Of a DNA stretch of 64,000 bases, positions 39,914 to 42,601 are shown piece by piece (position 1 is the first letter of the stretch; each line of letters opens with the position of its first letter). Both the position numbers and the translations under genes were made by a program. This stretch comes from Sphingobacteriales bacterium (GTDB lineage Bacteria > Bacteroidota > Bacteroidia > Chitinophagales > Chitinophagaceae). The stretch spans positions 1-64,000 of the forward strand of contig JAIXSZ010000068.1 of the NCBI GenBank assembly GCA_027484425.1, written 5' to 3'. The notes below the pieces were generated by a model. That model did not search any database. It saw only the letters and a list, made by a program, of their open reading frames with translations, and was not told the origin of the DNA.

Positions 39914-40018
39914 GACTTGTTAACTTTTAAGTTGTTTGCTCAGGTTGTGGTGAGCATATGTTCCCAATTCCAAAAAGAACAACTATCTTGCACAGCAATT
40001 ATAACAACACTAATAAAC

Positions 40019-41032
40019 ATGGAATTATATCTCGATTCGGCCAACCTGAAAGAAATAGAAGAAGGTTTTAAACTCGGTTTTCTTACCGGACTTACTACTA
40101 CACCTACCTTTATGCAACGTGAGGGCATCACGGATATTGACGGCACTATAGTAAAGTTGTCTAAAATGGTGCCAGTGTTGCAAATAGAAGCGCTGGGCAA
40201 TACTGCAGAAGAAGTTGTGGCAGAAGCAGTTCGTCAGTTGAATCTGGGATTGGATCCTAAAACGACAGTTTTTAAAATACCTGTTTCTTTGGAAGGTCTA
40301 AGAGCTTGTAAGATGCTGCGCAATCAGGGATTGTTAGTGAATGTACACCTTGTATATACACTACAGCAAGCGTATATGGCTATGCAAGCAGGAGCAAGCT
40401 ATGTTTGTCCGCTAGTAGGTCGTTTGCAAGATCAGGGTCATGATGCTGTGGCGCTGGTGGAGCAATGTGTGAAGGCTGTGAAGCAATATGGCTACGATAC
40501 AAAAATCATGTTTAGTTCTGTGCGTAATTCTGAGCATGTGCGCAACGCACTTACAGCAGGAGCGCACACGATTACTGTACCACTTAAAATATTGAAATCT
40601 CTTACAGAGAATAATTTCACTACTATAGGAACAGAACAGTTTTTGAGCGATACTCGCCTAATGACTGTGCGTGTAAAAGATGCTATCAATAGTATCAATC
40701 CACTTGTGAATGCTGACACAAACCTAAAAGATGCTATTGTAAAGATGACTGAATATGGATTTGGTTGTATAACAGTGGTAAATGATAACGGCGAAGTTGC
40801 TGGTGTGTTTACAGACGGTGATTTACGCAGATTGTTGCAAAATGATGGAGAACACATTTTGGACAAAAAAATAGGTAGTTTGGAATACAAAACACCTATA
40901 AGTATAGACGTAAATGCACTATTGAATGATGCGGCAGCAATATTTAAGAAAATGAAAGTAGATACTATACTGGCTACTGACAATAACAAACCTGTAGGTA
41001 TGCTAGACATACAGGATTTGAAAGCATACTAA
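40019..41032 (+). CDS. Transaldolase/fructose-6-phosphate aldolase-like protein fused to a CBS-domain pair
   Basis: This encodes 337 residues from the ATG at 40019; the frame extends upstream without similarity. Residues 1-222 form the small-transaldolase (FSA/TalC) barrel: YLDSANLKEIEE with Asp6, FKIPVSLEGL with the Schiff-base Lys86, YVCPLVGRL, and SSVRNSEHV. Three otherwise conserved positions differ: Thr28 for Asn in TTNP, His110 for Thr in VNVTL, and Gln137 for Asp in GRLDD. Residues 229-337 are two CBS modules; the first, with AGVFTDGDLRRLL, resembles the CBS part of KdsD/GutQ. The next genes are kdsC-like and kdsB, so it probably supplies, or senses and controls, the Kdo pathway. It could also be an ordinary nucleotide-regulated aldolase. 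Confidence 0.85.
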   Translation: MELYLDSANLKEIEEGFKLGFLTGLTTTPTFMQREGITDIDGTIVKLSKMVPVLQIEALGNTAEEVVAEAVRQLNLGLDPKTTVFKIPVSLEGLRACKMLRNQGLLVNVHLVYTLQQAYMAMQAGASYVCPLVGRLQDQGHDAVALVEQCVKAVKQYGYDTKIMFSSVRNSEHVRNALTAGAHTITVPLKILKSLTENNFTTIGTEQFLSDTRLMTVRVKDAINSINPLVNADTNLKDAIVKMTEYGFGCITVVNDNGEVAGVFTDGDLRRLLQNDGEHILDKKIGSLEYKTPISIDVNALLNDAAAIFKKMKVDTILATDNNKPVGMLDIQDLKAY

Positions 41033-41147
41033 TCTAATATTGTTTAGCATTTATTTTTTACAAATGGTATGATGGTCCTTTCAGGAACTTTATGCCATTT
41101 GTTTTTATTACCAGTATTCACTTTCTCTGCAAGTATAGTTTTTGATT

Positions 41148-41864
41148 ATGACTAATATAAATACAGATTTTATTCAAAATTCGTTTTCTGGAACATTTGT
41201 GACAGGGGCAAGTGAACTGGGTATGAAACTGGACCGAATAAATGCCTATATTTTTGATTGGGATGGTGTATTTAATAATGGCTCAAAGGGTGCTGATGGT
41301 TCAAGTCCTTTTAACGAAGTAGATTCAATGGGCATAAACATGCTTAGGTACAATCATTACATTCGCAAGTCTCTAAATCCCATAGCAGGTATTATAACTG
41401 GCGAAAAAAATCCTGTTGCATTTACTTTTTCCAGACGCGAGCATTTTCATGCCGTATATTATGGTATAAAAAACAAAAAAGATGCGTTAATGCATCTTTG
41501 TGATGCGCATGATATACAACCAGACGAAGTGGCCTATTTTTTTGATGATATCACGGATCTGGAAGTTGCATCTATGTGTGGGATAAGCATAATGGTGGGT
41601 AGAAACTGCAATCCAATGTTGGTGAATATGGCAAAAGAAAAACACCTTGCCGACTATATAACATCAAATGATGGTGGCAACAATGCGATACGAGAAGCCA
41701 CTGAATTGCTGAAAGCACTAAGTGGAAAATATGACGAAACGATAATGCAACGGTCTATATACTCAGAACACTATCGCGATTACCTCAATAGTAGAAATAT
41801 TCCTTCTCCAGCATTTTACACAGTGACAGATTCTAAGATTTCAGAAACCAATCCATTAATATGA
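41148..41864 (+). CDS. KdsC-like HAD phosphatase (3-deoxy-D-manno-octulosonate 8-phosphate phosphatase)
   Basis: This encodes 238 residues from ATG 41148. The HAD nucleophile motif is FDWDGVF (Asp37 and Asp39), motif II is IITGE, and the acidic motif is FFDDITDLEVASMCGISIMVG, matching the GDDxxD region of KdsC. The C-terminal ADYIT-x-NDGGNNAIREATELLKALSGKYDE follows KdsC almost position for position (GGxGAVRE, GKLDE). The N-terminal 25 residues and the last 35 are extra to the usual 170-190. Loss of the Gly in GDD (here Phe) is unusual. Its stop overlaps the kdsB start by four bases. Confidence 0.8.
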   Translation: MTNINTDFIQNSFSGTFVTGASELGMKLDRINAYIFDWDGVFNNGSKGADGSSPFNEVDSMGINMLRYNHYIRKSLNPIAGIITGEKNPVAFTFSRREHFHAVYYGIKNKKDALMHLCDAHDIQPDEVAYFFDDITDLEVASMCGISIMVGRNCNPMLVNMAKEKHLADYITSNDGGNNAIREATELLKALSGKYDETIMQRSIYSEHYRDYLNSRNIPSPAFYTVTDSKISETNPLI

Positions 41865-42601
41865 TAGCAGGTATAATACCAGCAAGATTTGCTTCTTCTC
41901 GTTTTCCGGGTAAACCGCTAGCTGACATAAACGGTAAAACCATGATTCAGCGTGTGTATGAACAGGCTGCTATGAGCCAACATTTGGACATAGTGGTGGT
42001 GGCGACTGATGATGAGAGGATATATAACCATGTACTTTCTTTTGGAGGTAAGGTGGTAATGACCGCTACTGAACACCCAAGTGGAACTGACAGGTGCTAT
42101 GAAGCGCTTACGCAACTGGGCGATGGCTATGAGTATGTTATCAATATACAGGGAGACGAACCATTTATAGTGCCAGCGCAAATTGATGAACTCGCCGTGG
42201 TTCTAAAGCAGGGAGGTGTGGAAATCGCAACTCAAATGATTGCGGTAAATGATTATGATTCACTGTTTGACAAGGGAGAGGTGAAAATAGTGCTTAATGA
42301 TAATATGGAAGGTATTTACTTTAGTAGGATGGTGATACCTTTTATGAAGGGTGTAGATGAAAAAGAATGGCATCTGCACCATACCTATTACAGGCATGTG
42401 GGTATGTATGCTTATAGGAGTGACATATTAGCCCAATTAACTAAGCTTCCAGTATCTAAGTTAGAAAAAGCAGAATCGTTAGAGCAACTGAGGTGGGTAG
42501 AAAGTGGATATAAGATAAAATGCGTGCCAACAACATATGAAAGTCATTGTATAGATACCCCTGAAGACTTGGCAAGGCTACAGAATAATGCTGCTTTGTA
42601 G
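41861..42601 (+). CDS. kdsB: 3-deoxy-manno-octulosonate cytidylyltransferase (CMP-Kdo synthetase)
   Basis: This encodes 246 residues. It activates Kdo with CTP for lipid A-core assembly. The N-terminal IIPARFASSRFPGKPLADINGKTMIQRVY is the nucleotide-binding signature. VVATDDERI, HPSGTDR, INIQGDEPF (Mg-binding Asp) and the C-terminal EKAESLEQLRW, VPTTYESHCIDTPEDLA are all KdsB-specific. It is coupled to the kdsC-like gene by an ATGA overlap. Confidence 0.96.
   Translation: MIAGIIPARFASSRFPGKPLADINGKTMIQRVYEQAAMSQHLDIVVVATDDERIYNHVLSFGGKVVMTATEHPSGTDRCYEALTQLGDGYEYVINIQGDEPFIVPAQIDELAVVLKQGGVEIATQMIAVNDYDSLFDKGEVKIVLNDNMEGIYFSRMVIPFMKGVDEKEWHLHHTYYRHVGMYAYRSDILAQLTKLPVSKLEKAESLEQLRWVESGYKIKCVPTTYESHCIDTPEDLARLQNNAAL

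Follow-up and report, generated by a model that had tools for sequence, protein, structure and literature searches.

Which enzyme opens a 3-deoxy-D-manno-octulosonic acid (Kdo) pathway when the usual isomerase is missing? The question arises at a locus on contig JAIXSZ010000068.1 of the Sphingobacteriales bacterium assembly GCA_027484425.1 (family Chitinophagaceae), of which we analysed positions 1 to 64,000 on the forward strand (the window, 64,000 nucleotides). Here a transaldolase domain related to fructose 6-phosphate aldolase (FSA) is fused to a pair of CBS domains, and the fusion gene is followed by two genes of Kdo type. Most Gram-negative bacteria cannot do without Kdo synthesis, whose first enzyme is regarded as an isomerase, KdsD. 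We found that the fusion is real and conserved and appears to take the place of the first enzyme in a Kdo-type pathway, and the genomics makes a fairly strong case for its role at KdsD's step. It is likely that the fusion does KdsD's job; a catalytic activity, arabinose 5-phosphate (A5P) as the product, glycolaldehyde as the donor and a feedback control are what we infer for it. No description of a transaldolase-CBS fusion together with A5P was found in the open-access literature. The fusion is composed as follows.

40019..41032, plus strand: transaldolase/FSA-CBS fusion, 337 residues, ATG start (open reading frame translation and domain searches)
40019..40660, plus strand: TalC/FSA-type (beta/alpha)8 domain, residues 1-214 (Pfam and fold search)
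40661..41029, plus strand: KdsD-type CBS pair, residues 215-337, with the motif FTDGDLRR (sequence, fold and tree)

The open frame can be extended upstream to a TTG at 39917; we place the start at ATG 40019 because aligned relatives open with the conserved N-terminus MELYLDS. Pfam matches TAL_FSA (PF00923) to residues 3-201 (E 3.5e-37) and also finds CBS (PF00571, E 2.4e-16). With the NCBIfam model fsa_talC (TIGR00875) the protein scores 163.6 bits, under the cut-off of 245.95, and kpsF aligns to residues 213-329 only, at 67.4 bits against a cut-off of 203.7. The kpsF/KdsD models reach only the C-terminal part, from residue 193 onward, and a SIS domain was found neither with Pfam nor with NCBIfam; TAL_FSA stands instead. 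The top Foldseek matches of the barrel are TalC/FSA-type transaldolases, and a full-length model (predicted local distance difference test, pLDDT, 87.0; predicted TM-score 0.60) leaves the domain arrangement open. A chance fusion or an assembly artefact was ruled out, since 88 fusion sequences (83 distinct, 64 clusters at 95% identity) all measure 334-340 residues.

A first-pass annotation, made from the DNA letters alone, had noticed AGVFTDGDLRRLL in the CBS module, which is indeed present in the translation, and had called the pair very similar to that of KdsD. Sequence, fold and tree all agree with this. The two best sequence matches in the PDB are CBS pairs of putative KdsD proteins, and the top five fold matches of the predicted pair (pLDDT 91.9) are KdsD CBS chains from Klebsiella, Methylococcus and E. 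coli; the ligand in the Methylococcus structure is reported to be the cytidine monophosphate conjugate CMP-Kdo. A branch with 100/100 support separates the CBS pairs of fusion and KdsD from 18 other CBS proteins, in a tree that is unrooted, has long branches and holds only CBS proteins scoring on the kpsF profile, so not all CBS families.

Exchange of the fusion with KdsD

The annotation had proposed that in the fusion an aldolase domain replaces the SIS domain of KdsD, and had advised a search of the genome for a SIS-domain kdsD and for kdsA. In the source genome (G000; 4.58 Mb, 95 contigs, estimated 100% complete and 3.96% contaminated) kdsA is present, and no SIS-type A5P isomerase, with or without CBS domains, was found with the kpsF model at E 0.001. 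The matches of this model are the CBS part of the fusion and one other CBS stretch in a 495-residue frame, which is probably inosine monophosphate dehydrogenase.

The same picture emerged from related genomes, where the two proteins largely replace one another. Among 18 genomes of the window's family in the order sample, all carry kdsA and 14 carry KdsD over the cut-off; the remaining 4 are exactly the fusion carriers (Fisher 3.3e-4). A larger sample of 244 family genomes contains 21 with the fusion only, 204 with KdsD only, 3 with both and 16 with neither. SIS-type KdsD was counted here at E 1e-25 (207 genomes, 206 of them also over the cut-off), and the Fisher value of 1.9e-17 is uncorrected for relatedness. 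Swaps within genera are the better evidence: five genera (g5, g91, g102, g115, g163) hold fusion-only as well as KdsD-only species, and in three further genera species with both suppliers stand beside KdsD-only species. Outside the family, the fusion is present and KdsD absent in all three genomes G512, G552 and G742, which belong to two other families of the class and to one other class. KdsD over the cut-off was found in none of 14 fusion entries, these three included; the entries correspond to 12 distinct genomes of which at least 4 are already in the family count. In LGM1 (G300), a complete genome in a single contig, the fusion likewise occurs without KdsD.

The fusion is sparsely distributed, in 4 of the 149 genomes of the order sample (all 4 in the window's family), in 24 of the 244 family genomes and in 6 of 395 genomes of the phylum, which include those of the two other families and the other class. 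Dozens of other genomes carry full-length relatives at 61-100% identity, mostly with the same neighbours. A scan of genome contigs gave 456 related stretches, of which the best 80 were kept and examined. These 80 are all fusions, at 77-100% identity, and mostly come from metagenome assemblies labelled Bacteroidetes, Chitinophagaceae and similar; LGM1 and IBVUCB1 are labelled otherwise. Two contigs labelled Azovibrio and Saccharibacteria (L095, L139) carry the fusion with 81% and 77% identity and are probably mis-binned Bacteroidota DNA.

Linkage to Kdo genes and a second KdsA class

Downstream of the fusion the window contains two further genes of the pathway.

41142..41864, plus strand: kdsC-like phosphatase of the HAD family, divergent, with the DxD-type motif FDWDGVFNNG in the translation
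41861..42601, plus strand: kdsB, CMP-Kdo synthetase family, above the TIGR00466 cut-off (209 of 155.2 bits)

Open reading frame coordinates and domain matches uphold the order first described, fusion, kdsC-like gene and kdsB, the latter two overlapping by 4 bases (ATGA). The kdsC-like gene more likely starts at an in-frame ATG, 41148, than at TTG 41142. Its product is matched weakly by KdsC models (61.9 of 208 bits; 49.8 of 106.95 bits) and by no Pfam model at E 0.001. The fusion had also been placed at the head of a Kdo-type cluster. This stands for the three local genes, while kdsA, the genes for a DegT-family aminotransferase and an iron-containing alcohol dehydrogenase (Fe-ADH) that adjoin it, and a Kdo-transferase family gene lie on another contig (C34); the cluster is split in this genome, and the fusion therefore heads only the local three genes.

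In relatives the linkage to kds genes is conserved, as our survey of loci revealed. The best 80 loci have as neighbours the kdsC-like gene (63), kdsB (57), kdsA (56), and the aminotransferase and Fe-ADH genes kdnA and kdnB (48 each). The commonest order, kdnA-kdnB-kdsA-fusion-kdsC-like-kdsB, is found at 30 of 91 loci, or 37 when those with an added epimerase gene are counted, and at 64 of the 91 kdsA precedes the fusion in the same orientation and none of the other pathway genes tested intervenes; this set counts a few loci twice. A canonical KdsD elsewhere in the genome, combined with a lack of kds linkage in relatives, had been named as speaking against the replacement and is not what we observed. 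At the best 80 loci each of the 29 KdsD matches listed falls on the fusion itself and ends in its CBS part, and none was scored as KdsD; the KdsD count at loci omits matches that start past residue 190 of KdsD. G742, from the other class, has kdsB, kdsA and the fusion grouped together, and kdnA and kdnB are close to them. In G113 and G135 the genes for kdsA2 (the KdsA class described below), fusion and kdsC-like phosphatase stand beside the same epimerase gene in an ilvE-rpsL-rpsG neighbourhood, where G107 has an ordinary kdsA (genes recognised by eye); it looks as if the trio had been swapped in for the G107-type kdsA. For co-inheritance of the module genes a Mantel test gave r 0.62-0.84, which 0 of 999 permutations reached; the value does not control for species relatedness, and we therefore do not use it as evidence.

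The metagenome assemblies at L069-L071, L073-L075, L079 and L080 have kdsB after the fusion, and a search for a KdsC-like protein found none; the phosphatase gene may have been lost there or be too divergent. G742 has a second kdsB over the cut-off (contig 37, 67127-67843), away from the fusion locus.

The fusion is accompanied by its own class of KdsA. The KdsA of G000, which we call KdsA2, is 41-45% identical to the KdsA1 copies compared, which come from genomes with KdsD and from f19, another family of the order. By its KDNR motif KdsA2 is present in 27 of 27 fusion genomes checked (as a fragment only in G168), and 26 of the 27 pass the Kdo 8-phosphate synthase cut-off (G000 with 328 of 314 bits). 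G220 and G370 have both suppliers and both KdsA classes. We compared 54 sequences (31 KdsA2, 23 KdsA1), taking those positions that are fixed to at least 90% within each class. From KdsA1 to KdsA2, KANR becomes KDNR, CRQ becomes CMQ, KKGQ becomes KHGQ and HSVQxP becomes HAIRxY, with the NRS motif kept. In the alignment, the CRQ to CMQ change is the loss of the Arg at the position of A. aeolicus R106, which, like the HSVQxP/HAIRxY loop, contacts A5P.

The fusion pathway is probably often the 8-amino-Kdo (Kdo8N) branch, given the gene pair beside kdsA. We took the names kdnA and kdnB from this branch in Shewanella, where an aminotransferase and an Fe-ADH likewise stand beside kdsA; the first step there is KdsD, here it would be the fusion. 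No NCBIfam model named the kdnA- and kdnB-like genes. A strict coupling of the fusion to Kdo8N was ruled out, because the Fe-ADH, present in 13 of 16 fusion genomes tested, was not found in G113, G135 and G300 at E 1e-60. The fusion-linked KdnB forms its own group, with 66-100% identity within it versus 47-50% to another kind. This second kind of KdnB-like protein occurs in 10 of 14 KdsD-only genomes (G047, G081, G088, G095, G101, G125, G130, G140, G144, G148), and therefore both pathway types may make Kdo8N.

A rebuilt aldolase pocket and the proposed reaction

Is the barrel of the fusion still an aldolase? We compared the 88 fusions with 24 ordinary transaldolases (TALs), kept out of 26 fetched best matches after a motif filter had removed L013 and L026. 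The following codons mark the positions of interest.

40274..40276, plus strand: K86, the lysine that forms the Schiff base, equivalent to K85 of E. coli FsaA; conserved in 88/88 fusions and 24/24 TALs
40100..40102, plus strand: T28, donor recognition; Thr in 88/88 fusions, Asn28 in FsaA, Asn in 24/24 TALs
40346..40348, plus strand: H110, catalytic water; His in 88/88 fusions, Thr109 in FsaA, Thr in 24/24 TALs
40406..40414, plus strand: C130 and L132, donor pocket and proton relay; FsaA has Ala129 and Tyr131 here, 24/24 TALs have Ser and Phe

Relative to the TALs, residues D6, T26, T27, E57, K86, N108, R135, S167 and R169 are retained and invariant in the 88 fusions, and the four pocket swaps (N28T, T110H, S130C, F132L) are fixed in all of them. 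Three distant fusions, from the other families and the other class, agree at every one of these positions. Aligned with E. coli FsaA, the fusion has T30 at Ser30, E57 at Q59, S167 at Ser166 and R169 at Lys168. A mechanistic report assigns Asp6/Asn28 of FSA to donor recognition, Gln59/Thr109/Tyr131 to the catalytic-water site and Ala129 to the donor pocket, and its mutants aimed at phosphate recognition are at Ser30, Ser166 and Lys168 (PMC13259622). From the conserved and the replaced residues we conclude that the side of the acceptor phosphate is largely kept, while the donor side is rebuilt. It would fit such a pocket if glycolaldehyde had replaced dihydroxyacetone as the donor, but this is a guess, as the pocket resembles neither that of FsaA nor that of the TALs.

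With known TalC/FSA transaldolases (T. acidophilum, T. maritima and B. subtilis TAL; E. coli FsaA) the fusion has the fold, the lysine, the acidic and the phosphate residues in common; unlike them it has fixed T28, H110, C130 and L132, a CBS pair and a Kdo-type operon. It has the C-terminal CBS pair in common with KdsD, KpsF and GutQ, with which it is exchanged between genomes and would share the same step, whereas they carry a SIS domain and its own catalytic part is an unrelated Schiff-base aldolase barrel.

The explanation we favour on balance is that the fusion supplies A5P for KdsA2 in place of KdsD by means of this rebuilt aldolase. A class I (Schiff-base) aldolase with an altered donor pocket would replace the isomerase; glycolaldehyde would be held as an enamine on K86 and joined to glyceraldehyde 3-phosphate to give A5P directly, so that the isomerisation of ribulose 5-phosphate would be bypassed. 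We regard this exact reaction as tentative, somewhat short of an even chance. The KdsD-type CBS pair would probably sense the end product of the pathway, as is presumed for KdsD. KdsA2 would then take up A5P, followed by the KdsC-like phosphatase, in most cases KdnB and KdnA, then KdsB and finally the Kdo transferase. The stereochemistry fits, as C2-C4 of D-arabinose match C3-C5 of fructose.

The proposed reaction has a counterpart in synthetic pathway design. According to two reports, FsaA and FsaB prefer glycolaldehyde as donor and glyceraldehyde 3-phosphate as acceptor with A5P as product (PMC6298115; see also PMC9947464), and engineered E. coli uses FsaA in this way, its glycolaldehyde affinity being judged insufficient (PMC9947464). 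The reaction is the same as that proposed for the fusion, but the route is engineered, consumes glycolaldehyde and is not a natural Kdo route, and the FsaA pocket differs. One improvement named there for the synthetic pathway is an A5P aldolase, to be found or built, whose affinity for glycolaldehyde is very high (PMC9947464). If our explanation is true, the fusion would be a natural A5P aldolase and give glycolaldehyde a natural biosynthetic use. It would also be a non-homologous replacement of an essential step by a carbon-carbon bond-forming enzyme, with the same kind of regulatory domain on two unrelated catalytic domains for apparently one job.

Weighing the A5P route

Several observations weigh against this explanation. 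No glycolaldehyde source is linked to the operon, and dihydroneopterin aldolase would give too little of it. The pocket with E57/H110/C130/L132 is unlike that of FsaA (Q59/T109/A129/Y131), so the donor choice of FsaA is not simply transferable, and L132 removes the Tyr/Phe relay position, which makes the aldolase activity itself less than certain. The Arg loss in KdsA2 and its KDNR and HAIRxY changes mean that the acceptor may not be A5P, and since KdsA2 and the phosphatase, with its scores below the KdsC cut-offs, are both divergent, the sugar may not be ordinary Kdo. Three genomes (G220, G370, G260) keep fusion and KdsD together, and G260 has KdsA2 as its only KdsA. At 8 of the 91 loci no tested neighbour was seen (some are short contigs), and in G552 the genes are dispersed, the fusion not adjoining kds genes. 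Finally, KdsD and the fusion were both missing from the 13 sampled genomes of f19, of which 10 have kdsA1; kdsB is present in 11 of 11 tested, 10 over the cut-off (e.g. L146-L152, L207-L210). The same holds for G223 (99% complete), with kdsA1 and kdsB and neither supplier. Therefore kdsA without KdsD is by itself no proof of replacement, and f19 and G223 must have another A5P source or fall into a detection gap; no candidate supplier was recognised by eye in eleven stretches around f19 kdsA/kdsB, nor in the kdsB stretch of G223.

Of the alternatives, the one that survives best, though unlikely, is a different sugar: the fusion would make another aldose phosphate, which KdsA2 would join with phosphoenolpyruvate to a Kdo isomer or relative for the KdsC-like phosphatase, KdnB/KdnA and KdsB. 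The changes of KdsA2 at otherwise fixed positions, some of them acceptor-side, would fit this, as would the divergent phosphatase, the separate KdnB group and the pairing of KdsA2 with the fusion in 27 of 27 genomes. However, KdsA2 of G000 passes the Kdo 8-phosphate synthase cut-off with its NRS motif kept, kdsB is ordinary, and the Q to R change in KdsA2 could merely relocate the lost Arg. On this equally unlikely footing, fusion, KdsA2 and phosphatase would together be a second and independent way of making an outer-membrane sugar of eight carbons unlike Kdo, in which a re-specialised aldolase sets a different pentose phosphate and a re-specialised synthase accepts it.

Slightly less probable again is a release of A5P from octulose 8-phosphate, which needs no glycolaldehyde. 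The retained E57, N108 and phosphate residues match those of TALs here, but residues of the dihydroxyacetone pocket of FSA (Asn28 and position 129) are among those changed, and a separate, ordinary TalC-type protein is present in each of the 4 fusion genomes of the order sample. One paper describes how transketolase can form octulose 8-phosphate, an L-type pentose pathway that includes A5P, and LmbR, the transaldolase of lincomycin synthesis that makes octulose phosphate (PMC5854111). LmbR resembles the proposed fusion enzyme as a transaldolase that acts on C5 aldose phosphates within a pathway of its own; it forms the octulose phosphate, the opposite direction, and is not known to have a CBS pair.

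The annotation had offered a metabolite sensor as an alternative, and we find such a role improbable. A sensing or regulating function within the Kdo operon, with A5P coming from another enzyme, would agree with the genomes of f19 and G223 and with the replacement of several active-site residues. It is disfavoured by the Schiff-base lysine and phosphate residues, invariant in the 88 and the three distant fusions, and by the exchange with KdsD inside five genera, which fits a shared catalytic job. An ordinary CBS-regulated pentose phosphate transaldolase that merely sits in the operon would explain the fold and the overall similarity to TalC, but is most improbable in view of the fixed unusual pocket, the separate TalC and the near-exclusion with KdsD.

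An epimerase dependent on nicotinamide adenine dinucleotide was also seen beside kdsA1 in three KdsD-type genomes (L170 5809-7790, L171 6594-8422, L172 7764-9625). These epimerases are 80-85% identical to that of the fusion operon in G070, and other fusion operons adjoin an epimerase as well.

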